NCBI GenBank assembly: GCA_016217625.1
Contig: JACRHK010000250.1
Span: 1 to 12,861 of the forward strand
Direction of reading: 5' to 3'
From: Nitrospirota bacterium
GTDB lineage: Bacteria > Nitrospirota > RBG-16-64-22 > JACRHK01
DNA length: 12,861 nucleotides
The notes beneath the pieces were generated by a model that worked only from the letters and a program-made list of their open reading frames with translations, searched no databases and was not told the DNA's origin. This document shows positions 206 to 11,939 of the stretch, piece after piece. A program made the translations under genes and the position numbers. Numbering within the stretch: position 1 is the stretch's first letter; each line of letters begins with the position of its first letter.

Positions 206-264
206 AGAGAGTGAAATATTTCGCCCGGTGAGTTCGTTGACATGTGCAGATGAAGGGGGTAACC

Positions 265-876
265 GTGCAACTCGATGCGTCCCAGCGCAGGGAGTTCGAA
301 CGCCTGGTTGAGCCTCTGCTCGATCCGCTCTACCGAACCGCCTGTTGGCTCCTGAGGGACGCCGAGCGGGCGCAGGACCTCCTCCAGGAGAGCCTCCTGA
401 AGGCCTTGAAGGGGTTCGGAGGGTTTGAGCCGGGGACCAGCTTCAGGGCCTGGGTCTTCCGGATCCTGCGGAACACCTTCATCGACGGCTACCGGGTCCG
501 CGAGCGGGAACCCGATTTTCTCTCGCTGGACGACTTGGAGGAGATAATCCACCCCAGCTCGCTGGTCTGGGAACGCGCGATGGCGGCGACGCCCGAGAAG
601 GTCATCCTGGATCGGCTGATGTTGGCCGACCTCCGCCGCGCGCTGGAGGTCTTGCCGGAAAAGTACCGGACCCCGGTCATCCTGCGCGACCTGGAGGGGC
701 TCTCTTACAGGGAGATCAGCCACGCGCTGGGCATCCCCATCGGGACCGTGATGACCCAGATTTACCGGGGACGGCGCCTGCTCCAGAAGGAGGTCCTGGG
801 GTTGGAAGCCGGGAGTCAGGAGTCGGAAGTCAGGAGTCAGAAGTCAGGAGGCAGAAATCAGGAGGCAGAGCGATGA
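265..876 (+). CDS. ECF-family RNA polymerase sigma factor
   Basis: About 203 residues, with sigma2 at roughly 15-80 (DAERAQDLLQESLLKAL, then FRAWVFRILRNTFIDGYR) and sigma4 at roughly 120-178 (LPEKYRTPVILRDLEGLSYREI and a helix-turn-helix ending GTVMTQIYRGRRLL). This two-domain layout is that of ECF (group 4) sigma factors, which direct RNA polymerase to stress or envelope genes and are held by a partner anti-sigma factor. GTG 265 is chosen because AAGGGGG (253-259) lies 5 bp upstream. ATG 250 and GTG 244 are in frame but lack such a site. The stop overlaps the next start as ATGA (873-876), implying translational coupling. Oddity: residues 183-203 are encoded by a 7-bp tandem repeat, giving a polar, low-complexity seven-residue repeat absent from normal ECF factors. 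The fold assignment is secure; target genes are unknown. Confidence 0.93.
   Translation: MQLDASQRREFERLVEPLLDPLYRTACWLLRDAERAQDLLQESLLKALKGFGGFEPGTSFRAWVFRILRNTFIDGYRVREREPDFLSLDDLEEIIHPSSLVWERAMAATPEKVILDRLMLADLRRALEVLPEKYRTPVILRDLEGLSYREISHALGIPIGTVMTQIYRGRRLLQKEVLGLEAGSQESEVRSQKSGGRNQEAER
814..869 (+). repeat. Heptamer tandem array, AGTCAGG type (8 units)
   Basis: Eight uninterrupted 7-bp units in strict register. AGTCAGG-type units alternate with AGTCAGA/AGGCAGA-type units, with only one or two substitutions per unit. The array covers the end of the sigma gene and stops three bases before the ATG of the anti-sigma gene. Its last units contain GGAGG (861-865), which sits 7 bp before ATG 873 and so serves as the ribosome binding site. 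The same unit recurs before leuC (10581-10629). Confidence 0.9.
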
Positions 877-1592
877 ACTGTAGCGATGTGCGGACCTTGA
901 TCTTCGCCTTTGTGGACAACGAGCTGGACGTGGCCACTTCCCTGAAGGTCCAGGCCCATCTGGATCGTTGTGCGGAGTGCGCGACGCGGGCGGACTTTGA
1001 AATCCGTTTCCAGGAGCATCTGCGGGAACAGGTGAAACCCTGTCGCCTGCCGAAGGCCGGGCGGCGCCGAATCCTGGCTGCCTTGCGTGATCCGGTCGGC
1101 GCGGGGCGATGGTACGCGATAGGCCAAGCTTTCCGCCGCTTAAACCGCGGCCCCCTCTGGGGCGGGGTTGTCGGGGCGGCCCTCGCGCTGGTTGCCGGGG
1201 CATTCCTGTTCTCCGCGCAGGAGACGCCCGCGCAACAGAAGGTCGTCTACCACTTCAACCAGGGGGATCTCCGCGTCTGGAAGGCAGGCCTGATGAACAT
1301 CAGCAACCACTTGGAGAGCGCGGGCCCGGAACGGGCGCGGATCGTGGCCGTCCTCCACGGTCCGTCGCTGGACATAGTGAACAAAGGCAAGAGCCAGCCG
1401 GAGGTCCTGCGCTTGATCGAAGAGCTCAAGGCCAGAGGCGTACTCTTCCGGATCTGCCACAACACGGTCAACCAGCGGAAGATCGATTGGGAGCGGGATC
1501 TGTACGATTGCAAACCGGGCGATCTCGTCCCTTCCGGCGTGGCGGAAATTGCACGGCTCCAGCAACTAGGGTATGCGTACATCCGGATCTGA
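873..1592 (+). CDS. Membrane zinc-type anti-sigma factor fused to an outer DsrE-like domain
   Basis: 239 residues in three parts. Residues 1-55 are a cytoplasmic zinc-binding anti-sigma (zf-HC2/ZAS-like) domain with Cys3 and the signature H29-x3-C33-x2-C36. Residues 94-115 form one transmembrane helix (GVVGAALALVAGAFLFSA). Residues 122-239 are a DsrE-like domain (KVVYHFNQGD, VLHGP, FRICHNTV, GYAYIRI) that would lie outside the membrane. ZAS proteins bind and silence the ECF factor encoded beside them, so this is the likely partner of the preceding sigma factor. DsrE-fold proteins commonly carry a reactive Cys used in sulfur relay; Cys195 in the CHNTV segment is the candidate and Cys213 is a second outer-face Cys. 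The C-terminal domain closely resembles the next gene's product. The sensing role is an inference from this fusion. The start is fixed by the ATGA overlap and a GGAGG 7 bp upstream. Confidence 0.88.
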   Translation: MNCSDVRTLIFAFVDNELDVATSLKVQAHLDRCAECATRADFEIRFQEHLREQVKPCRLPKAGRRRILAALRDPVGAGRWYAIGQAFRRLNRGPLWGGVVGAALALVAGAFLFSAQETPAQQKVVYHFNQGDLRVWKAGLMNISNHLESAGPERARIVAVLHGPSLDIVNKGKSQPEVLRLIEELKARGVLFRICHNTVNQRKIDWERDLYDCKPGDLVPSGVAEIARLQQLGYAYIRI

Positions 1593-1626
1593 CGCGTACG
1601 CAAAAGGCAACCACAAACTCCAAGCC

Positions 1627-1642
1627 GGACGGTTCTCCGTCC
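1627..1642 (+). other. Short GC hairpin just before a ribosome binding site
   Basis: GGACGG (1627-1632), loop TTCT, CCGTCC (1637-1642): a perfect 6-bp stem with a tetraloop. AAGGAGGG follows at once (1643-1650). It lies in the 60-bp gap between the anti-sigma gene and the secreted DsrE-like gene. It could protect or set the level of the downstream message. There is no T-run, so it is not a terminator. Confidence 0.5.
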
Positions 1643-1655
1643 AAGGAGGGAAATG

Positions 1656-2138
1656 ATGGCAAGACGCGAGGGAATTCCGACGGTGATTGTCGCGCTGATT
1701 TTCGGGGCGTTTTTCGCGTTCGGGGCTGTGGCGGCCGAGGCGAGCCACCTCTCCGGCAGTCCGAAGAAGCACAAGATCGTCTATCACTTCAACGGGTCCG
1801 ACAGCGGGGATCACGTGAAGAAGGCAAAGGCCGTCCTCGACAACATCCAGAACCACGCCAACGGTTTGGGTGGGTGGAAGAACATCGAAGACTTTGTGCT
1901 GGTCGTCCATGGGGACGGGGTGATCCCCTTCGTCGAGAAGAGCATGGACATCGAGGTGAGGAAGCGCGTGGATATGCTCATGACGTCGGGGATGAAGCTC
2001 GGAGTCTGCGGCAACACCCTGAAGGCGAAGAAACTTGAGCTCAAGCAGTTTTCCGATGGGGCCGTGCGTCTCGACCAGGGCGGGGTGACCGCTGTCGGCG
2101 AATACCAGGAAAAGGGGTACGTTTACATCAAGCCCTAA
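1656..2138 (+). CDS. Secreted or membrane-anchored DsrE-like protein
   Basis: About 160 residues: a basic N-terminus (ARR), a hydrophobic stretch at about 9-27 ending in small residues (AVAAEAS), then a DsrE-like domain at about 40-160. The stretch looks like a Sec signal peptide, or an uncleaved anchor. The domain mirrors the outer half of the upstream anti-sigma factor: KIVYHFNGSD against KVVYHFNQGD, VVHGDG against VLHGP, GVCGNTL against RICHNTV, and GYVYIKP against GYAYIRI at the end. The single Cys118 matches the anti-sigma Cys195. The protein should sit in the periplasm or on the outer face, where it could pass a sulfur or redox signal to the anti-sigma factor; that role is inferred. AAGGAGGG (1643-1650) is 5 bp from ATG 1656 and only 2 bp from the adjacent ATG 1653, so the second ATG is preferred. 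It is the last gene before a strong terminator. Confidence 0.85.
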   Translation: MARREGIPTVIVALIFGAFFAFGAVAAEASHLSGSPKKHKIVYHFNGSDSGDHVKKAKAVLDNIQNHANGLGGWKNIEDFVLVVHGDGVIPFVEKSMDIEVRKRVDMLMTSGMKLGVCGNTLKAKKLELKQFSDGAVRLDQGGVTAVGEYQEKGYVYIKP

Positions 2139-2157
2139 CCCCTTGATCGAAGGGAGA

Positions 2158-2190
2158 GGCCCCCCGATGACCGTCGGGGGGCCTTTTTTT
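2158..2190 (+). terminator. Strong intrinsic terminator
   Basis: A perfect 10-bp GC-rich stem, GGCCCCCCGA (2158-2167) against TCGGGGGGCC (2174-2183), with a 6-nt loop and a run of seven T (2184-2190). It lies 19 bp after the secreted DsrE-like gene and ends the sigma/anti-sigma operon. Confidence 0.95.
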
Positions 2191-2220
2191 GTTTGGACCA
2201 TTGGGGTATGATGAAAACAT

Positions 2221-2259
2221 AGTCCAAAGTCCAAGGTCCAAAGTCCAAGGTCCAAAGTC
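2221..2259 (+). repeat. Heptamer tandem array, AGTCCAA type (5.5 units)
   Basis: Five 7-bp units, AGTCCAA twice, then GGTCCAA, AGTCCAA and GGTCCAA, followed by the half unit AGTC. Only the first base varies. The array fills the space between the terminator and the tsaB start and ends one base before ATG 2261. It contains no good Shine-Dalgarno sequence. The period matches the other arrays in the window but the unit sequence differs. Confidence 0.92.
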
Positions 2260-2260
2260 T

Positions 2261-2962
2261 ATGTACATCCTGGCTTTAGAGACGGCGACGAGTCAAATCG
2301 GCGTCGCCCTGGTGAACGAAGGGGGAGTGCTGGCGGAGCGGGCCTACCCTCCGGGCGAGCCCCCGTCTCTCCGCCTCCTGGAAGGGGTGGAAGAGGTCTG
2401 CCGGGCAGCCGTTGTCCCCCTGGAGAAGCTGGACGGCTTGGCCGTCTCTGTCGGACCTGGCTCTTTTACGGGGCTCCGTGTCGGGATGGCCACGGCCCAG
2501 GGGCTTGCCTTCGCCCTGGAAATCCCCATCGCCCCGATCCCGACGCTGGAGGCCCTCGCCTGGAGCCTCCCCCAAGCAACCGGGTTCTTGTGTCCCATCC
2601 TGGATGCCAAACAGGGTGAGGTCTATGCGGCAATCTACCGCTACAATCCGGACGGGAAGCTGGACACCCTGCTGGGGGAACGGGTCATCACCCCCAGGGA
2701 CTTGGCTGCCTCGATCCGGGGACCCGTCACCTTCCTGGGGGAGGGGGCGGAACGCTACGGGCCGTTGCTTCGCCAGATGCTGCCGCATGCGGAGTTCGCC
2801 CATTCCGCCGCCCGTTACCCTTCCGCCGCTCAGGTGGGGATCCTGGGCCTGGCTCTCCTTGCCCGGGGGGGAGGGGTGCAACCGGAAGCCTTGAGGCCGC
2901 GGTATCTGCGACGCGCGGAAGCGGAAGTGCAGTGGGAAAAACGCCTGATGAGCAAGCGGTGA
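2261..2962 (+). CDS. tsaB: tRNA threonylcarbamoyladenosine (t6A) biosynthesis protein TsaB
   Basis: 233 residues, close to the usual TsaB size. The start MYILALETAT and the signature VGPGSFTGLR (about 64-73) followed by GMATAQGLAFAL are typical of the YeaZ/TsaB branch of the ASKHA fold. TsaB is a cytoplasmic, non-catalytic partner that with TsaD and TsaE transfers the threonylcarbamoyl group to A37 of ANN-decoding tRNAs. Reading upstream to an in-frame start at 2189 would add 24 residues made mostly of the heptamer array, so ATG 2261 is the real start. No clear Shine-Dalgarno sequence precedes it. rimI follows and overlaps its end, a pairing seen in many bacteria. tsaD and tsaE are not in the window. 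Confidence 0.95.
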   Translation: MYILALETATSQIGVALVNEGGVLAERAYPPGEPPSLRLLEGVEEVCRAAVVPLEKLDGLAVSVGPGSFTGLRVGMATAQGLAFALEIPIAPIPTLEALAWSLPQATGFLCPILDAKQGEVYAAIYRYNPDGKLDTLLGERVITPRDLAASIRGPVTFLGEGAERYGPLLRQMLPHAEFAHSAARYPSAAQVGILGLALLARGGGVQPEALRPRYLRRAEAEVQWEKRLMSKR

Positions 2963-3453
2963 GGGGGGACCAAGCTGATCGGGTTGATGCCCTCGCCGTG
3001 GAGGCGGTGATTGAGCCGATGCTCCCGGAGGATCTGGAGCAGGTCCTCCGGATCGAGGAAGCCTCCTTTCCCTCTCCGTGGACGCGGGAGATGTTTGAGG
3101 CCGAGCTTCGCGGCCCCGCGTTTGCGCGCCAACGAGCGCTCTGCTTCTTCGATCGGGACGGGAAACGACGGATCCTGGGATATGCCTGCTATTGGATCCT
3201 CTTCGAAGAGCTGCACCTCCTTGATTTCGCCGTCCATCCGGCCTACCGCCGTCGGGGGCTGGGGAGCCGGCTCCTGGAGGCGATCCTCCAAGAGGGGGCA
3301 AAAGCTGGAGCCTCCCGGGCGCTCCTGGAGGTGCGGGCATCGAATGCCGCCGCCCACAAGCTTTATGAGCGCTTCGGTTTTCGACCGATTATCGTCAGGA
3401 AGGGGTATTACCGCTCCCCCAGGGAGGACGGCTGGGTGATGGAGCGGGGATGA
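2959..3453 (+). CDS. rimI: RimI-type N-terminal GNAT acetyltransferase
   Basis: About 164 residues. GNAT acetyl-CoA site: LDFAVHPAYRRRGLGSRLL, with R-R-R-G-L-G at about 97-102. The RimI-like C-terminus has LEVRASNAAAHKLYERFGF followed by KGYYRSPREDGWVM. RimI proteins acetylate the N-terminal alpha-amino group of ribosomal protein S18 and other proteins in the cytoplasm. Linkage to tsaB supports the assignment. The start is uncertain: GTG 2959 overlaps the tsaB stop as GTGA and is chosen for that reason. GTG 2932, GTG 2998, GTG 3007 and ATG 3019 are alternatives. The conserved fold starts only at IEPMLPEDL, so the first 17 or so residues may not be translated. Confidence 0.9.
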   Translation: MRGDQADRVDALAVEAVIEPMLPEDLEQVLRIEEASFPSPWTREMFEAELRGPAFARQRALCFFDRDGKRRILGYACYWILFEELHLLDFAVHPAYRRRGLGSRLLEAILQEGAKAGASRALLEVRASNAAAHKLYERFGFRPIIVRKGYYRSPREDGWVMERG

Positions 3454-3476
3454 GGGGTGATGCGCCTGAATTTCGC

Positions 3477-3505
3477 TTGTCTTCGCCGGGGGAATGTGTT
3501 ACAGT
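3477..3505 (+). promoter_or_regulatory. Candidate extended -10 promoter for the DUF465 gene
   Basis: TTGTCT (3477-3482), a 17-bp spacer, then TGT-TACAGT with an extended TG and -10 at 3500-3505. Each hexamer matches the consensus at four of six positions. A transcript from here would contain the whole inverted-repeat element that follows. Confidence 0.35.
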
Positions 3506-3530
3506 GGCTGTGTCCTGATCGGTGGGGTAA

Positions 3531-3612
3531 ACCCCGTTAGAAGTTTACAAACCAGGGGCGAGAAAGCAATTGGCAAATTTAAAATCCCGGATGAGAGAAC
3601 TTCTAACGGGGT
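3531..3612. repeat. Palindromic element with perfect 15-bp inverted repeats
   Basis: ACCCCGTTAGAAGTT (3531-3545) is matched exactly in reverse complement by AACTTCTAACGGGGT (3598-3612), with 52 bp between. GGGGTAAA also stands just outside or at the end of each arm (3524-3531 and 3608-3615). There is no coding potential and no T-run. It resembles a REP- or MITE-like non-autonomous element lodged between rimI and the DUF465 gene. As RNA it would fold into a 15-bp stem with a large loop. No transposase is seen nearby. Confidence 0.8.
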
Positions 3613-3654
3613 AAAGGGGTATCCTGAGCTTCTCCAACACGAGGAGGGGGGCGT

Positions 3655-3894
3655 ATGGCGGAACTCAAGGAGCAGGAGTTGACGGATTACTTTTTGCGGG
3701 AACACGAGGAGTACAAGAAACTGTACCAGGAACACCGGCGATTGGAGGAATCGCTGAAGGCTTTAGATGAGAGACGGTTTCTTACGGTGGCGGAGGAGTT
3801 CGAGCGTAAGCGGGTCCAGAAACAGAAGCTGTTGAAGAAGGACCGCATGGCGGAGATCATCCGGGAGTATCGCCAGGGACAGCTTGTCCGCTGA
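3655..3894 (+). CDS. DUF465 (YdcH-like) small charged protein
   Basis: 79 residues, highly charged and predicted to be almost wholly helical: EEYKKLYQEHRRLEESLKAL, a short turn, then EFERKRVQKQKLLKKDRMAEIIREY. The spacing of the two helices and the lysine-rich QKLLKKDRM segment are those of the DUF465/YdcH family, small cytoplasmic coiled-coil proteins of unknown function. The start is well set: GGAGG (3643-3647) lies 7 bp before ATG 3655. It stands alone between the inverted-repeat element and the ilv promoter. No function can be assigned. Confidence 0.8.
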   Translation: MAELKEQELTDYFLREHEEYKKLYQEHRRLEESLKALDERRFLTVAEEFERKRVQKQKLLKKDRMAEIIREYRQGQLVR

Positions 3895-3929
3895 AAGCAT
3901 CCCCGCCGCGGGGCCAAGAAACCAGACTG

Positions 3930-3958
3930 AAGGGGAGCGGGTAATTGACCTCCCCTTT
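3930..3958 (+). terminator. Weak terminator-like hairpin after the DUF465 gene
   Basis: AAGGGGAG (3930-3937) pairs perfectly with CTCCCCTT (3950-3957) across a 12-nt loop. The T-run is short (TTT), so termination would be partial. A smaller stem CCCCG-CCG-CGGGG lies at 3901-3913. Because the sequence is A-rich before and T-rich after the stem, it could act in both directions. Confidence 0.4.
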
Positions 3959-3973
3959 AGTATGATCAATCGT

Positions 3974-4002
3974 TTGACGCATGGGGCTATCTGTGATAGA
4001 TT
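3974..4002 (+). promoter_or_regulatory. Candidate promoter of the ilv/leu operon
   Basis: TTGACG (3974-3979), a 17-bp spacer and TAGATT (3997-4002) preceded by TGA, an extended -10. Transcription would start near 4009, about 30 nt before ilvB. That leader is too short for a leader-peptide attenuator or T-box. AGGGA (4026-4030) is the ribosome binding site. This is the best sigma70 match upstream of the operon. Confidence 0.55.
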
Positions 4003-4038
4003 AATGAAAATTACCCGAATCATTCAGGGACAGAACAG

Positions 4039-5769
4039 ATGAAAATCTCCGGCGCAGAGATTTTCCTCGAGGCGCTTCGTCGCGAGGGGGTGAAGGTGGT
4101 CTTCGGCTACCCCGGAGGGGTCGTCTTAAAAGTCTTCGACGTCCTCTATGACGAGAAGGAGATCAAGGTCGTCCTCAGCCGCCATGAGCAAGGGGCCACG
4201 CACATGGCGGACGGGTATGCCCGGGCCACGGGGCGCCCCGGCGTGGTGCTGGTGACCTCGGGCCCCGGCGCGACGAACACGGTTACGGGGATCGCCACGG
4301 CTTATATGGACTCGATCCCGCTGGTGGTCTTTACGGGGCAGGTCCCCACGAAGATGATCGGCAACGACGCCTTCCAGGAGGCGGACATCGTGGGGATCAC
4401 GCGGCCTTGCACCAAGCACAGCTACCTCGTCAAAGACGTGGCGGACCTGGCCGGGGCGATCAAGGAAGCCTTCTACATCGCCTCGACGGGGCGCCCGGGG
4501 CCGGTCCTGGTGGACATCCCCAAGGACGTGTTCCTCGACAAGGCGGAGTTCCGCTATCCGGAGGAGGCGAAGCTCCGGAGTTACAACCCGAAGTATGCGG
4601 GCAACAAGTGGCAGATCAAACAGGCGGCCCAGGCCATCGCCAAGGCCAAGAAGCCGGTCATCTACGCGGGCGGCGGCGTCCTTCTCTCCGGGGCGGCGGA
4701 GGAGCTCCGGGATCTGGCCGAGATCACGCAGATCCCCGTGACGCTCACCCTGATGGGGCTGGGAGGGTTCCCCGGCACGCATCCCCTCTTCCTGGGGATG
4801 CTGGGGATGCACGGCACCTATCAGGCCAACATGGCCGTCTATCGCTCCGACCTGGTGATCGCTATCGGCGCCCGCTTCGACGACCGGGTGACGGGAAAGG
4901 TGGAGGAGTTCTGCCCCGAGGCAAAGATCATCCATGTGGATATTGACCCTACCTCCATCAAGAAGAACGTTCACGTGGATGTCCCCATCGTGGGGGACGT
5001 CAAGCACGTGCTCCGGGATCTGAACACCATGCTCCGGGAGCTCAAGGAGCCCTGGGAGGCGATCCGCAAGGCCTGGCTCCGACAGGTGGCCGAGTGGCAG
5101 GCCGAGCACCCGCCGGCGTACGAATGGAGCGACGAGGTGATCAAGCCTCAGTACGTCATCGAGAAGATCTACGATCTGACCGGCGGGGACGCCATCATCA
5201 CGACCGAGGTGGGGCAGTGCCAGATGTGGACGGCCCAGTTCTTCAAGTTCAACAGGCCCCGCACCTTCCTGAACTCCGGCGGCCTGGGGACAATGGGGTA
5301 CGGATTTCCCGCCGCCATCGGCGCGCAGATGGCTTTCCCGGACCGGCTGGTGATCGACATCGCCGGCGACGCCAGCCTGGAGATGAACATCCAGGAGCTG
5401 GCCACGGCCGTGATCCAGCGGCTCCCCGTGAAAGTGGCGATTCTCAACAACCGCTTCCTGGGGATGGTCCGCCAGTGGCAGGAGCTCTTCTTCGGGGGGC
5501 GCTACTCGAGCAGCGACATGACCGGCCAGCCGGATTTCGTTCGGCTGGCCGAGGCATACGGCGCCGTGGGCCTCCGGGCCGAGAAACCCTCGGAGGTGGA
5601 GCCGGTGCTGAAGGAGGCCTTTCGAATCTCCCGCCCGGTGCTCATCGACTGTGTGGTGGATCGGTATGAGAACGTCTTCCCCATGGTCCCGGCCGGGAAG
5701 GGCAACCACGAGATGATCTTCGGTCAGGAGAAGAAGTCTTCCGAGCGGGGGTTGCGGGCGGTCGGCTAA
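4039..5769 (+). CDS. ilvB: Acetolactate synthase, large catalytic subunit
   Basis: 576 residues, full length for the family. It condenses pyruvate with pyruvate or 2-oxobutyrate, using ThDP, FAD and Mg2+, the first common step of Val, Leu and Ile synthesis in the cytoplasm. Domains in order: N-terminal PYR domain with catalytic Glu50 in RHEQGA; middle FAD-type domain (about 190-330); C-terminal PP domain with the ThDP/Mg motif from GDAS (443-446) to NN (470-471). The segment [10 protein letters not shown] follows, as in true AHAS rather than oxalyl-CoA decarboxylase or catabolic relatives. GDAS replaces the common GDGS, a variant found in other bacterial AHAS enzymes. It is first in the operon, directly after the candidate promoter and 66 bp before ilvN. 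Confidence 0.97.
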
Positions 5770-5835
5770 ATGCGACCGACAAGGGGCGCGCTCGTTTGAG
5801 GGAGCATGTATTCCGAGCGTTAGCGAGGCATCTCA

Positions 5836-6309
5836 TTGCGGCACATCATCTCGATCATTGTCGAAAACAAGTTCGGTGTGCTGTCCCGGGTGGCGGGGCT
5901 CTTCAGCGGCCGCGGGTACAACATCGAGACCGTGGCGGTGGGCCCCACGCTGGACCCCGAAGTTTCGCAGATGACCATCGTCACGAACGGGGACGACCAG
6001 GTCCTTGAGCAGATCACGAAACAACTCAACAAGCTCATCGACGTGATCAAGGTCGTGGATTTGACCGAGAAGGAATTCGTGGAGAGGGAGACGGCCCTCA
6101 TCAAGGTGGCCCCTCCGCCCGAGGGGCGCGCCGAGGTCCTCCGGACGGCGGAGATCTTCCGGGCCCGCATCGTCGACTCCAGCCCCAAGACCTCTACTCT
6201 CCAGGTGACGGGCGATGAGAAGAAGATCGCGGCGATCATCGAGCTGCTGAAGCCGTACGGCATCAAGGATCTCGTCCGGACGGGCAAGGTCGCGATTGCG
6301 AGGGAGTGA
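5836..6309 (+). CDS. ilvN: Acetolactate synthase, small regulatory subunit
   Basis: 157 residues. The N-terminal ACT domain (about 2-75: HIISIIVENKFGVLSRVAGLFSG, then YNIETVAVG) binds the feedback effector, usually valine. The C-terminal domain (about 80-157) activates IlvB. The two subunits form the AHAS holoenzyme. The start is TTG 5836: GAGG (5825-5828) stands 7 bp upstream, and the conserved ACT domain begins within two residues, leaving no room for a later start. The non-AUG start may keep its output below that of ilvB. The gene ends 94 bp before ilvC, in a gap filled by a heptamer array. Confidence 0.95.
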   Translation: MRHIISIIVENKFGVLSRVAGLFSGRGYNIETVAVGPTLDPEVSQMTIVTNGDDQVLEQITKQLNKLIDVIKVVDLTEKEFVERETALIKVAPPPEGRAEVLRTAEIFRARIVDSSPKTSTLQVTGDEKKIAAIIELLKPYGIKDLVRTGKVAIARE

Positions 6310-6319
6310 GCACTTACAT

Positions 6320-7423
<1,104 letters not shown>

Positions 7424-7439
7424 GGCGACACCTCGGGCC

Positions 7440-8111
7440 ATGACAGCAGGAGGGACTGCGACCCGAAGCCTCCACGCTCCGATTGCCCGGGAGGGCGTGC
7501 CCTTCGTGCTGGCCGGCCTCGGGCTGTCGGCCGCAGCCTTTCTGATGGGCGGCTGGGGACCGGCGCTCGTGCCGACGGCGGGGACCCTCTTCGTCGCGTG
7601 GTTTTTCCGGAACCCGGAACGTCATGCTCCCGAAGGGGAGGGGGTTGTCGTCTCCCCGGCCGACGGCACGGTCATCGAGATCCGGGAGGAGGTCGAGAGG
7701 CGGTTCTTCCACGAGGGCGGCGTGAAGATCGCCATCTTCATGAACGTCTTCAATGTCCATGTGAACCGGGTGCCCGCGACGGGCCGGATCGTGGGCATCC
7801 GCCACCACCCCGGCAAGTTCTTCTCGGCCAACCGGGAGAAGGCTTCGCTGGAGAACGAACAGAACGCCATCCTGCTGGAGGACGAGCGGGGGAGGCGGGT
7901 CGTCTTTATTCAAATTGCGGGATTCATTGCGCGGCGGATCGCCTGCTGGATCGGGGAGGGAGACCGGGTAGAGCGGGGCCAGCGCTGCGGCCTCATCCGG
8001 TTCGGCTCCCGCGTGGATGTCTATCTCCCCAAGGGGGTGGAGGTCCGGGTCACGCTCCGGCAGAAGGTCCGGGCGGGGGAAACTATTCTGGGGGTGCTAC
8101 CATGTCGGTAA
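7440..8111 (+). CDS. psd: Phosphatidylserine decarboxylase proenzyme (short type)
   Basis: 223 residues, the size of the short PSD-A form rather than the longer E. coli type. It converts phosphatidylserine to phosphatidylethanolamine at the inner membrane. Residues about 20-56 are two close hydrophobic segments ending AWFFRNPER. Conserved core: VVSPADGTV, VNVHVNR-like FNVHVNRVPATG, and HHPGKFFSA. The self-cleavage site is Gly189-Ser190 in IRFGSRVDVYLP, where Ser190 would become the pyruvoyl group. It overlaps pssA by 10 bp, so the two are coupled. The ribosome binding site is poor; a small stem GAGG-cgaca-CCTC lies between ilvC and the ATG. It sits inside an amino acid operon, an arrangement known from other lineages. 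Confidence 0.93.
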   Translation: MTAGGTATRSLHAPIAREGVPFVLAGLGLSAAAFLMGGWGPALVPTAGTLFVAWFFRNPERHAPEGEGVVVSPADGTVIEIREEVERRFFHEGGVKIAIFMNVFNVHVNRVPATGRIVGIRHHPGKFFSANREKASLENEQNAILLEDERGRRVVFIQIAGFIARRIACWIGEGDRVERGQRCGLIRFGSRVDVYLPKGVEVRVTLRQKVRAGETILGVLPCR

Positions 8112-8929
8112 AGCGTCAAGGCATCAAGCGGGGGATTTATCTGATCCCGAATCTCTTGACCACGGGGAACATGTTCAGCGGATTTTATTCCGTCATCGCC
8201 TCGCTGGGGGGAGAGTACATCTACGCGGCGGTCGCCATCCTCATCGCCGTGGTCTTCGACGGCCTCGACGGGAAGGTGGCCCGGATGACCAAGAGCACGA
8301 GCCGCTTCGGCATCGAGTACGACTCCCTGGCGGATCTGGTCTCCTTCGGGATGGCGCCGGCCCTGCTCATCTACTCCTGGGCCCTCAACAGCTACGGGTG
8401 GCTGGGCTGGGTGGCCGCCTTCCTCCTGGTCGTCTTCGGCGCGCTCCGCCTGGCCCGCTTCAACGTCCAGGTGGGGACGGTGGAGAGCAAGCACTTCATC
8501 GGGCTGCCGATCCCGGCGGCGGCCAGCGTGATTGCCACGACGGTCATCCTCGACCAGCATTTTCTGGGGATGGGTCGGGAGATCCGTCCGCTGGTGATCC
8601 TCTTGATCACCTACCTGATGGCCTTCTTGATGGTGAGCACGATCCGCTACCGGAGCTTCAAGGACTTCAACCTCCAGGAGCGGAAGCCGTTCCGGGTGCT
8701 TGTGGGGGCGGTCCTGATCCTGATCGCCATCGTGGCCCAGCCCCAGGCGATGGTGTTCCTGATCTTTGTCCTGTACGCCCTCTCCGGCGTGGTGGAGCAC
8801 TTTTTCGGTCAGGCCATCAGGCGGACGTTGGCCCTGGCGGGGGTGAAGAACCGGGAGATCGAAGGGAATCCCCAGGAGGAAGAAGAGATCGTGGATCGGG
8901 ATGTCGTCGTGAGTAAGCGCACACCCTAG
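8102..8929 (+). CDS. pssA: CDP-diacylglycerol--serine O-phosphatidyltransferase
   Basis: 275 residues, an integral membrane enzyme. It makes phosphatidylserine from CDP-diacylglycerol and serine, the substrate of the psd product just upstream. The CDP-alcohol phosphotransferase motif D-G-x2-A-R-x8-G-x3-D-x3-D is complete (residues 53-78: DGLDGKVAR, then G70, D74 and D78). The start IPNLLTTGNMFSGF is typical of PssA. Several hydrophobic helices follow between about 80 and 240, and an acidic tail (NPQEEEEIVDRD) lies at the end. ATG 8102 has GGGGG 7 bp upstream and overlaps the end of psd. In-frame extension upstream to 7598 runs through psd and lacks family support. Confidence 0.95.
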   Translation: MSVKRQGIKRGIYLIPNLLTTGNMFSGFYSVIASLGGEYIYAAVAILIAVVFDGLDGKVARMTKSTSRFGIEYDSLADLVSFGMAPALLIYSWALNSYGWLGWVAAFLLVVFGALRLARFNVQVGTVESKHFIGLPIPAAASVIATTVILDQHFLGMGREIRPLVILLITYLMAFLMVSTIRYRSFKDFNLQERKPFRVLVGAVLILIAIVAQPQAMVFLIFVLYALSGVVEHFFGQAIRRTLALAGVKNREIEGNPQEEEEIVDRDVVVSKRTP

Positions 8930-8937
8930 GCAGGGGA

Positions 8938-9026
8938 AATCCAAAACACAAAATCCGAAATCCTAAACACAGCGCTTTCACATATGATCTGTTTCGGATT
9001 TCGATATTCGGATTTAGGATTTGATT
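8938..9026. repeat. Two opposed heptamer arms, AATCCGA type, forming an imperfect hairpin
   Basis: The left arm (8938-8972) has five 7-bp units of type AATCCNA/AACACAA. The right arm (8992-9026) has five units of type TTTCGGA/TTTAGGA, the reverse-complement family. CAG (8970-8972) and CTG (8989-8991) bound a 16-nt loop, so the whole can fold back on itself with mismatches. It fills the pssA-leuA gap and ends 6 bp before the leuA ATG. It is strongly AT-rich in a GC-rich region. Confidence 0.8.
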
Positions 9027-9032
9027 TATCAG

Positions 9033-10571
9033 ATGCGCACCATTCTCATCTTCGATACGACGCTCCGGGACGGGGAGCAGTGCCCGGGAGCCAGTATGAA
9101 CGTGGAGGAGAAGTTCCTCATCGCGCGGCAACTGGCCCGCCTGGGCGTGGACATCATCGAGGCGGGGTTCGCCTTCAGCTCCCCCGGGGACTTCGTGGCC
9201 GTCCAGCGGATCGGCAGGGAAGTCAAGGGACCCGTCATCTGCAGCCTCGCCCGCGCCAAACCGGAGGACATTGACTCCGCCTGGGAGGCGCTGAAGACCG
9301 CCCATCGCCCCCGGATCCATACGTTCCTGTCGACGTCGGAGATCCACCTCCGCCACCAATTCCGGATGACCAGGGAGCAGGCGCTGGAGCGGGCGGTCGC
9401 CATGGTCCGTCGGGCGAAAGGGTACGTCGAGGACGTGGAGTTCTCGCCCATGGATGCGAGCCGCTCCGACCCGGAGTTCCTCTACCGGGTCATCGAGGCG
9501 GTCATCCAGGCGGGGGCCACGACGGTGAACATCCCGGACACCGTCGGCTACGCCATTCCGGAAGAGTTCGGCGCGCTCATCCGGGGGATCCGTGAGCAGG
9601 TGCCGGCCTCGGACCGGATCGTCCTGTCCGTCCACTGCCACAACGACCTGGGGCTGGCGGTCGCCAATTCCCTGGCGGCGATCCGAAACGGAGCCGGCCA
9701 GGTGGAGTGCACCATCAACGGGATCGGCGAGCGAGCCGGCAACGCCTCGCTGGAGGAGATCGTGATGACGCTCCGGACCCGCAGGGACTTCTTCCAGGCC
9801 GACACCCGGATCGCGACCGAGGAGATCTACAAGACCAGCCGGATGGTCTCCGGCATCACCGGGATGGTGGTCCAGCCCAACAAGGCCGTCGTGGGGGATA
9901 ACGCCTTCGCCCACGAGTCGGGGATCCACCAGGACGGCCTGCTCAAGGAGCGGATCACGTACGAGATTATGACGCCGGCCTCCATCGGCCTCCTCAAGAG
10001 CAAGTTGGTCATGGGGAAGCACTCGGGCCGGCACGCCTTCCGGGAACGACTCCTCGAACTCGGGTATGAGCTTGCCGACGAGGATCTCAACAAGGCGTTC
10101 CGGCGCTTCAAGCGGCTCGCCGACCAGAAAAAGGAGATCTTCGACGAGGACCTGGAGGTCATCGTGAGCGAGGAGGTCTACCGGATCCCCGATACGTATG
10201 TGCTGCATTATCTCCACGTGGAGAGCGGGACGGACAAGACGCCAATCGCCACGGTCGAGCTGCTGGTGGACGGCAAGCCCGTCCGCGAGACGCGGACGGG
10301 GGACGGCCCCGTGGATGCTACGTATCGGACGATTACGGCCATTACCGGGACCCGGAGCCAGCTCGTGACCTACGCGGTCAAGGCGATCAGCGGCGGCTCG
10401 GACGCCCAGGGCGAGGTGACGGTCCGGATCAAAGAGGGGGACAAGACGGTCCTGGGGCAGGGGGCCGACACCGACATCATCACGGCCAGCGCCAAGGCGT
10501 ACTTAAACGCCCTGAACAAGCTCGCCCATCGCCGGCGGCAAGCCGAGCAGGCGACCGGAGGAGGGGTGTAG
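9033..10571 (+). CDS. leuA: 2-isopropylmalate synthase
   Basis: 512 residues, normal for bacterial LeuA. It joins acetyl-CoA and 2-oxoisovalerate, the first committed step to leucine, in the cytoplasm. The TIM-barrel catalytic domain (about 1-270) has [16 protein letters not shown] with Arg12 and Asp13, the metal ligand pair His201/His203 in [15 protein letters not shown], and Asn237 in [14 protein letters not shown]. Linker subdomains follow, with [11 protein letters not shown]. The C-terminal LeuA allosteric domain (about 390-505) is present, so leucine feedback is likely. This domain and the LeuA-type motifs separate it from homocitrate synthase; citramalate synthase is less likely. ATG 9033 gives the family start [10 protein letters not shown]. 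No good ribosome binding site is seen, and TTG 9021 is a possible but poorer start inside the repeat. Confidence 0.94.
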
Positions 10572-10580
10572 GGTGAGAAA

Positions 10581-10629
10581 AGTCAGGAGTCAGGCCCGCT
10601 CGGAGCGGGGCAGGGAGCCAGGAGTCAGG
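10581..10629 (+). repeat. Heptamer array, AGTCAGG type, with an in-phase hairpin insert
   Basis: Forty-nine bases, seven positions of 7 bp. Units 1, 2, 6 and 7 are AGTCAGG or AGCCAGG, and unit 5 is GGCAGGG. Units 3 and 4 are replaced by exactly 14 bp containing the hairpin CCCGCT-cgg-AGCGGG (10595-10609), so the 7-bp phase is kept across it. The end of the array creates AGGAGG (10627-10632), 5 bp before the leuC ATG. It is the same unit family as 814-869. Confidence 0.88.
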
Positions 10630-10637
10630 AGGCGTGT

Positions 10638-11939
10638 ATGGGGTTGACGATCACCGAAAAGATCCTGGCGCGGCATGCTGGGCGGGACCGCGTCGAGCCG
10701 GGGGAGATCCTTTGGGTGGATGTAGACGTGTTGATGACGCATGACGTTTGCGGTCCGGGGACCATCGGGGTCTTCAAGCGGCAGTTCGGCGAGCGGGCGC
10801 GGGTCTGGGACAAGGACCGGGTGGTCATCACCCCCGACCATTATATCTTCACGGCCGATCCCCATGCCCGCCGCAACCTCGACGTGCTCCGCGCGTTCGC
10901 GCTGGAGCAGGGGATCCCCCACTTCTACGACGCGGGACCGAATCGGTACAAGGGGGTCTGCCACGTGGCCCTCGCCGAGGAGGGGTTCACCCGTCCCGGG
11001 GAGGTCCTCTTCGGCACGGACTCTCACACATGCACGGCCGGCGCGTTCGGCGGATTCGCCACGGGGATCGGCAACACGGACGCGGCCCTCATCCTGGGGA
11101 TCGGGAAGCTCTGGGTGAAGGTGCCGGAGACCATGCGGTTTGTCTTCGAGGGGCCGCTGCCGCCGTACCTCATGGCCAAGGACCTCATTTTGCAAGTCAT
11201 CGGCGACATCGGCGTGGACGGGGCGAGCTACCGGGCGATGGAGTTTGCCGGCGAGGGGGTCTACGCCCTCCCCATCGAAGAACGGATGACCCTCTGCAAC
11301 ATGGTGATAGAGGCCGGCGGGAAGAACGGGGTCATCGCCCCGGACAAGGCGACGCTCGACTATATCAGCCGCCGCACGGAGAAGCCGTTCGAGGTGGTGA
11401 CCGGGGATGCCGACTCGCGCTATCACTCCGAACGGGCGTATCAGTTGTCCGATCTGGAGCCGGTCGTGGCCCGTCCCCATTCCCCGGACAACCGGGCCCT
11501 GGCGCGGGAGTGCCGCGACGTTCGCCTGGATCGCGCGTATATCGGCTCTTGTACGGGAGGCAAGGTCGAAGACTTCCGCGCTGCGGCTCGTATTCTCAAC
11601 GGGCGGACGGTAACGGTCGGAACGTACGTGGTCCCCGCCACCACTGCCGTCGCCCGCGCGTTGGATCAGGAGCGGATCGACGGCAAGACCCTCCGGCAGA
11701 TCTTGGAGGCGGCGGGCGCGCAGATCGCAGAGGGGGCTTCCTGCGCGGCGTGCCTGGGCGGGCCGGCCGATACGTTCGGCAGGCTCAACGGCGCCGAGGT
11801 CTGCATCTCCACGACGAACCGGAACTTCCCCGGGCGGATGGGATCCAGGCAGTCGGCGGTCTACCTTGCCTCTCCCCTTACGGTGGCGGCCTCCGCCGTC
11901 GCGGGCCGGATCACCGACCCGCGGGAATTTCTGGCTTAG
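10638..11939 (+). CDS. leuC: 3-isopropylmalate dehydratase, large subunit
   Basis: 433 residues, the shorter LeuC/homoaconitase-like form rather than the roughly 466-residue enteric form. With LeuD it isomerises 2-isopropylmalate to 3-isopropylmalate through a [4Fe-4S] cluster. The cluster ligands are Cys305 in GSCTGGK and Cys369/Cys372 in SCAACLGG. Other conserved segments are VDVLMTHDVCGPG, FGTDSHTCTAGAFGGFATGIGNTD and the C-terminal STTNRNFPGRMGS. Many LeuC proteins have SCTNG where this one has SCTGG. A homoaconitase role is less likely given leuA and leuD alongside. AGGAGG (10627-10632), supplied by the heptamer array, is the ribosome binding site. leuD starts 12 bp after the stop. Confidence 0.95.
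   Translation: MGLTITEKILARHAGRDRVEPGEILWVDVDVLMTHDVCGPGTIGVFKRQFGERARVWDKDRVVITPDHYIFTADPHARRNLDVLRAFALEQGIPHFYDAGPNRYKGVCHVALAEEGFTRPGEVLFGTDSHTCTAGAFGGFATGIGNTDAALILGIGKLWVKVPETMRFVFEGPLPPYLMAKDLILQVIGDIGVDGASYRAMEFAGEGVYALPIEERMTLCNMVIEAGGKNGVIAPDKATLDYISRRTEKPFEVVTGDADSRYHSERAYQLSDLEPVVARPHSPDNRALARECRDVRLDRAYIGSCTGGKVEDFRAAARILNGRTVTVGTYVVPATTAVARALDQERIDGKTLRQILEAAGAQIAEGASCAACLGGPADTFGRLNGAEVCISTTNRNFPGRMGSRQSAVYLASPLTVAASAVAGRITDPREFLA

Follow-up and report, generated by a model that had tools for sequence, protein, structure and literature searches.

Dispersed 7- and 8-bp repeat arrays in the intercistronic spacers of a Nitrospirota genome and its relatives

What are the short tandem arrays that stand ahead of genes in a 12,861-nt contig of a Nitrospirota bacterium, and why do they share a 7-bp (heptamer) period? 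The contig (GenBank assembly GCA_016217625.1, JACRHK010000250.1; C199 in our numbering), analysed over its whole length and referred to below as the window, is part of a draft genome, G000, of 1.61 Mb in 289 contigs that is 77.9% complete. All five array sites of the window end 1–14 bp ahead of a start codon (873, 2261, 6404, 9033 and 10638), as an earlier note on this DNA had correctly recorded, and the roles suggested as possible in that note included phase-variable switching and effects on translation near the start. The answer that we consider probable, though with reservations set out below, is a different one: the arrays would be dispersed, fast-turnover 7- and 8-bp repeats of intercistronic spacers, comparable to repetitive extragenic palindromic (REP) elements, mainly non-autonomous and either selfish or mutation-driven. 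Over the genome and its relatives, the arrays are locked in period, recur as families, lie on the stop-codon side of spacers, keep one polarity, gain and lose units and are exchanged whole.

The period was analysed in the window and 60 further contigs of G000 taken by even numbering. Eight of these 61 contigs were excluded as containing at least 10% N (six of the first 40 were wholly N), so that the sample came to 338,212 bases in 53 contigs. Array clusters numbered 75 for period 7, 25 for period 8 and six or fewer for every other period, mixed-lag clusters being assigned to 7 or 8 if those lags scored at least equally high. A single stricter threshold, applied with no such assignment, returned 52 lag-7 and 24 lag-8 segments, with no more than four at any other lag, multiples of 7 and 8 aside. 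After shuffling, the first 41 contigs yielded no segment at lag 7 or lag 8, and only three lag-7 and five lag-8 segments were obtained at an equally strict threshold from 1,199,223 bases of control sequence (80 ilvC loci of other bacteria). Extrapolation by simple proportion gives roughly 480 arrays in G000, coding repeats counted in. The common 7-bp period suggested by the earlier note is therefore borne out by these 75 arrays and, period 8 apart, other periods are not equally common. One of the rare exceptions, at L065:3200-3383, is a hexamer array of about eight AGGTTA units facing AGGTTG-type hexamers in a similar gap.

Such a lock on 7 (and 8) could arise from polymerase slippage alone, if slips of 7–8 bp succeeded best, any heptamer could grow and selection only set where arrays survive. 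For heptamers slippage has been suggested before (Mrazek 2007, cited in the available parts of PMC4679880 and PMC4692102), and it would also account for the whole-unit changes in length seen between species. A composite array at L049:195-279 fits as well: an octamer array (AATGGGTC) turns into a heptamer array (AATGAGC), the unit having apparently passed from 8 to 7 bp through the loss of one base and then re-expanded at period 7. A local process alone, however, does not spread one core over many sites, and it yields neither inverted pairs of fixed polarity nor swaps of whole arrays between congeners, so that pure slippage appears improbable as a complete explanation.

The spread of individual cores was evident from circular, strand-aware clustering, in which 107 lag-7/8 segments fell into 32 clusters. 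Eighteen of these were recurrent and held 93 of the segments; the 14 singletons include a few artefacts, namely two hexamer arrays that scored at lag 24 and some coding repeats. A pattern made of paired AGTCMRR units gave 169 matches in G000, against one for the reversed control pattern. Most families combined nearly invariant unit positions with one to three variable ones. In TCAGCNN arrays the two-base spacers comprised 15 of the 16 possible dinucleotides, with an entropy of 3.76 out of 4 bits (153 spacers from 60 arrays); these arrays were picked by their exact core, which is thus conserved by construction, and the columns of unselected clusters show a like shape. Spacers were less free with the GTCAAT (5 of 16 dinucleotides) and AGTCA (3 of 16) cores. 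Across the phylum, TCAGCNN triplets were present in 58 of 148 genomes and the reversed control was almost absent. The triplets were distributed patchily, from 0 to 120 per genome even inside one family. The earlier view that unit sequence is free does not survive this recurrence. In another member of the phylum, a 20-kb stretch that had been selected through a pattern match (L231, G026:C47:45001-65000) held 14 period-7 AGAAGTN/AGCAGTN segments, lying in parts of the sequence that look duplicated.

Placement with respect to called genes was far from even. Arrays occurred in 40 of 103 co-directional gaps of 40–159 bp, 6 of 45 co-directional gaps of at least 160 bp, 7 of 19 convergent gaps and 1 of 19 divergent gaps, and only 1,210 of 4,494 array bases lay inside called coding sequence, whereas the latter makes up ~87% of the sequence. 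In the 49 array-bearing co-directional gaps of 20–400 bp, the median distance was 6 bp from stop codon to array and 16 bp from array to start codon. Forty of these 49 arrays were within 15 bp of the stop, a number reached in none of 2000 random placements (mean 30.3), while the 24 found within 15 bp of the start fell below the random mean of 30.3. At times the upstream stop codon itself belongs to the first array unit. The frequency of Shine-Dalgarno-like motifs was similar in the presence (63%) and in the absence (68%) of an array, and a 5-base Shine-Dalgarno match was present in 39% of all genes behind arrays. The simplest interpretation of this bias, which favours stops and not starts, is that an array takes up all of the spacer but the ribosome site.

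These figures bear directly on the idea of phase-variable switches or start-proximal translational regulators. In addition to the position of all five window arrays, such roles would draw support from unit counts that differ between species and from the 21 of 49 gaps in which no more than 12 bp separate the array from the start, as only 3 of those 21 keep a 5-base Shine-Dalgarno match. Genome-wide, however, the stop side is preferred and gene starts are not, most arrays lie outside called genes, the neighbours of the window arrays are mostly housekeeping or biosynthetic genes, and the overall Shine-Dalgarno frequency is little altered. A start-codon role as a general rule was rejected on placement, with the 21 start-near arrays as the exception; phase variation is unlikely given where the arrays lie, and regulation of this type appears highly improbable for the class as a whole.

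Many arrays were organised as inverted pairs, and each family kept one order of its two arms. Of 36 pairs in the G000 sample, 34 obeyed this rule (one L035 place being counted twice, under the GATRGA and GAAGATA cores, and both exceptions belonging to the GTCC family), as did 10 of 10 pairs in class relatives. Over the 148 genomes, TCAGC followed by GCTGA was met at 345 places in 29 genomes and the opposite order at six places in six genomes, both counts referring to pattern places, several of which may overlap in one long array; within the class the ratio was 178 to 0. When 35 TCAGC arrays from 30 loci of other genomes were inspected on both strands, the partner was downstream in 11, upstream in none and absent in 24. 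The GTCAAT octamer behaved in the same manner, with GTCAAT first at 10 places (five sites, all in G000) and the reverse order at none in the four genomes searched. Single-orientation arrays without a partner arm were common.

Bases facing each other across the TCAGC arms were less complementary than expected by chance (8 of 66 spacer bases, compared with 16.7 in shuffles; 0.3% of shuffles were lower). The arms of this family are therefore not fresh fold-back copies, and recent fold-back copying found no support there as a source of inverted pairs. Five other families offered only two to eight facing spacer pairs each. A thermodynamic cause of polarity was set aside, since some families have G-C and others A-T pairs facing the hairpin loop.

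An invariant core with free neighbours, a fixed polarity and non-complementary spacers across the arms are what might be expected of functional intercistronic RNA or DNA elements, in which bulged hairpins after stop codons would stabilise mRNA, make ribosomes pause or be bound by a protein that recognises the core, in the manner of REP sequences and bacterial interspersed mosaic elements (BIMEs). Closeness to stops points the same way, since REPs within 15 nt of a stop in E. coli reportedly affect translation (available part of PMC12306157). Nevertheless, units and even the period are swapped in one gap between congeneric species, at least 18 cores in one genome would demand many binding factors, and partnerless single-orientation arrays are common. 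RNA folding is of little help: the five window sites folded no better than shuffles or only modestly so (z from -2.1 to +1.3), the one modest case being that before tsaB (z -2.09), which gives no support to the mRNA leader structure considered in the earlier note, and an Rfam search of the window returned no match. We regard a functional element of this type as possible but unlikely.

Turnover was followed in three congeneric genomes, with aligned flanks 80–95% identical and 18 gaps classed by eye from the alignments. The comparison left out L205:1810, L207:5269 and L217:5951, whose counterparts were not covered by the sequence aligned or fetched, and, for lack of orthology, L270:18118 on the G002 side; at L215:19962 it ends with the stretch. 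The unit was kept in 12 gaps and survived as a remnant in one, four gaps carried unrelated arrays and one had an array in one species only. Gaps with a kept unit often differed in unit number, in one case with ~5, >20 and ~8 units. Among the four swapped gaps, one had different arrays in all three species, although the G002 array involved (L270:13479) is weak, its score being attained by 3 of 100 shuffles, and another had a 7-mer in place of an 8-mer. At one congener gap a whole TCAGC pair had been gained or lost. Exchange was also seen at gaps of the window itself: between ilvN and ilvC, G000 has a heptamer array and three class relatives an octamer array (GGTGAATS), while the pssA–leuA gap holds unrelated inverted pairs in G000 and its relatives. 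Thus the units proved exchangeable at orthologous sites, which supports the note's idea of one shared period with differing units. In the relative G001 (L215:5917-6394), a T-box (RF00230, 6010-6253) upstream of leuA has inverted AATTG/CAATT heptamer pairs on either side.

Two kinds of enzyme were sought as possible copiers. Y1 transposase (PF01797) had no match in the array-rich genome G059 (100% complete, 83 TCAGC triplets) and four matches in G000. Reverse transcriptase (RVT_1) had no match in G000 (77.9% complete), G001 (98%) or G003 (89%), and one match in G002. Being undetected in some array-rich genomes, neither enzyme seems to be required, and both a telomerase-like reverse transcriptase resembling DRT10, which adds 9-nt repeats in the system studied (available part of PMC12632851), and a REP-associated tyrosine transposase (RAYT) were set aside as necessary copiers. 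Given that arrays are interchangeable at a site, that polarity is nearly absolute in inverted pairs and that some positions are free, one may conjecture a single mobile or copying system, common to distant bacteria and hitherto described in fragments, that writes period-7/8 arrays of many cores into intercistronic spacers by means of dedicated machinery, other than Y1 transposase or reverse transcriptase, which measures the 7–8 base step and reads strand polarity. We offer this only tentatively and consider it doubtful.

Under the preferred account of REP-like, mainly non-autonomous repeats, arrays would grow and shrink by whole units, most likely through strand slippage, and whole arrays would be copied into, or replaced in, spacers, which would be the route of their dispersal. 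Purifying selection on place would then let them survive where they do least harm, inside operons in the stretch that follows a stop codon and precedes the ribosome-binding site of the next gene, or else between convergent genes. Gaps with promoters would stay free of them, as would most coding sequence. That arrays come near start codons would simply follow from their filling short spacers, and a few may incidentally provide a stop codon or an AGGAG-like motif.

Several observations weigh against this account. A neutral repeat alone leaves unexplained both an invariant 5-base core beside two near-random bases and the near-absolute polarity and identical core found in distant families of the phylum. 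The less-than-chance complementarity of the TCAGC spacers hints that selection disfavours perfect palindromes or favours a bulged hairpin of defined form. With Y1 transposase and reverse transcriptase undetected in some array-rich genomes, the obvious candidates for a copier fall away, and no copying enzyme was found. So few of the 21 genes with a start-near array have a 5-base Shine-Dalgarno match that some of these arrays may affect initiation or stand in for the ribosome site. Finally, the gene starts used for placement depend on a simple hexamer-based caller made for this analysis (348 genes).

Arrays of this basic kind are already known. Rehm et al. 2015 (PMC4692102) described heptamers of Xanthomonas, GGGAATC/(GGGANTN)n, and Nostoc, GGGGAYT, with 2–26 units and both conserved and free positions. 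According to the available part of that paper, 70 and 75 site pairs are convergent on opposite strands, length and sequence differ between two species, and the sites lie mostly between co-directional genes, rarely between divergent ones, and nearer the upstream open reading frame (ORF; 28 versus 160 nt on average). The excess of period 7, the co-directional stop-side placement and the inverted pairs all recur in G000. There, however, one G-rich family per genome is reported and read as G-quadruplexes, whereas G000 has 18 families together with octamers, most of them without G-tracts (for example TCAGCNN, AWNGCAA and GTCAATNN), and unrelated units occupy one gap in related genomes.

In Geobacter metallireducens, GTTGCTYN, MTYCTGA, GGACCGG and TWGTTGAY sites were described as separate predicted integration host factor (IHF)/HU sites and regulatory RNAs (available part of PMC2700814). 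As in G000, both periods share one genome and positions are degenerate. The reverse complement of MTYCTGA, TCAGRAK, covers TCAGRAG, which is the AGTCAGR unit of the window in rotated form (compared by hand). By analogy, the present arrays might be binding sites for nucleoid proteins of the IHF/HU type, the architecture being equal: four tandem GTTGCTYN octamers or five MTYCTGA heptamers are paired there on opposite strands. Yet the many cores and the avoidance of divergent promoter gaps would be odd for sites of transcriptional regulators, and the Geobacter assignment is itself a prediction, so that we judge this very unlikely. The statistics on polarity, placement and turnover given here set the present analysis apart from that account.

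Other precedents share single features. Heptamers in the P6b stem of the Nostoc tRNA-Leu intron (TDNGATT, NNTGAGT) have free positions, build stems and include cases in which one repeat class replaces another at a site, but they sit within an intron stem at one locus (available part of PMC4476775). The TAACTGA repeats of marine Beggiatoaceae are likewise mostly intergenic heptamers, with 169 direct sets and one inverted set in one genome (MacGregor 2015, available part of PMC4679880); unlike the arrays of G000 they comprise one unit, are nearly all direct and lie mostly within several nucleotides of a start, and a translational role has been proposed for them. REP, BIME and REPIN sequences are dispersed extragenic palindromes, some right after stop codons (PMC12306157). 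REP/REPIN elements have a 20–40 bp palindrome with a GTAG/CGTC tag (available part of PMC3733652). No tandem 7–8 bp build is described for those associated with a RAYT in the available part of PMC12306157, and a Y1 transposase, which G059 is without, disperses them. Among the titles and abstract openings covered by a literature search, none concerned a genome with arrays built from many different units, the nearest being the G. metallireducens paper (PMC2700814). What is new here is that many families and both periods occur jointly and that their polarity, placement and exchange have been measured.

The array sites and main genes of the window are collected in Table 1. Lag-7 scores were compared with 1000 shuffles for each site and were reached by none for 814-869, 2221-2259 and 6320-6389 and by three for 8938-9026, so that the 7-bp period claimed for all five sites stands for four of them. 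The fifth, 10581-10629, is weak by itself (67 of 1000 shuffles attained its score) and was missed by the array finder. It consists of two halves separated by a 21-bp insert with a small CCCGCTCGGAGCGGG hairpin, with the 7-bp register preserved across the break, and its second half leads into the AGGAGG preceding leuC. AGTCAGG is used at two of the five sites, and the four window arrays other than that at 10581-10629 belong to families of two to eight members in the sample. The supposed single array at 8938-9026 is in fact an inverted pair, AAATCC facing GGATTT. The AWNGCAA array occupies the ilvN–ilvC gap, starting 8 bp past the stop and ending 14 bp before the start.

Nor are all the arrays intergenic: that at 814-869 lies inside the sigma-factor ORF, whose Pfam domains stop at residue 181 of 210 and whose C-terminal tail is encoded by the heptamers. 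The last units of this array give AGGAGG ahead of the ATG at 873, which overlaps the TGA of the sigma ORF as ATGA.

Table 1 Array sites and genes of the window (TRF, Tandem Repeats Finder)
Feature	Position	Strand	Basis and remarks
AGTCAGR heptamer array, ~8 units, 14-bp higher-order	804..869	+	TRF, shuffles; within 3' end of sigma ORF
AGTCCAA/GGTCCAA heptamer array, 5.6 units	2218..2259	+	TRF, lag scan, shuffles; 1 bp before tsaB ATG (2261)
AWNGCAA heptamer array, ~10 units	6318..6389	+	TRF, lag scan, shuffles
Inverted heptamer pair in pssA-leuA gap, first arm, AAATCC units	8937..8971	+	TRF, lag scan, pair search
Inverted heptamer pair in pssA-leuA gap, second arm, GGATTT units (reverse complement of first)	~8992..9022	+	pair search
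AGTCAGG x2, first half of interrupted leuA-leuC gap array	10581..10594	+	read from sequence
AGCCAGG AGTCAGG, second half of interrupted leuA-leuC gap array	10616..10629	+	read from sequence
Sigma-70-family (ECF-like) gene	244..876	+	Pfam Sigma70_r2/r4_2; ORF list
Zinc-finger (zf-HC2, anti-sigma-like) protein with C-terminal DsrE domain	873..1592	+	Pfam
tsaB-like gene	2261..2962	+	Pfam TsaD family, gene calling
ilvC, ketol-acid reductoisomerase	6404..7423	+	Pfam
leuA, 2-isopropylmalate synthase	9033..10571	+	Pfam HMGL-like + LeuA_dimer
leuC (aconitase family)	10638..11939	+	Pfam

The gene that follows the zf-HC2/DsrE gene (1653-2138) encodes a second DsrE protein according to Pfam. Top named relatives of IlvC were Nitrospirota-type and Geobacter records with 70–75% identity. 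A perfect 15-bp inverted repeat (ACCCCGTTAGAAGTT), with arms at 3531-3545 and 3598-3612 that are 52 bp apart, stands ahead of a short ORF at 3655 and is possibly another dispersed palindromic element.

Earlier reports treated intercistronic heptamer arrays one at a time, as quadruplexes in one case and as sites of regulators, signals for translation or stems of an intron in others. With period, stop-side placement, polarity and swapping measurable jointly across 18 families, the question of a single process becomes testable. Nearness to start codons in one window is a poor guide to function.

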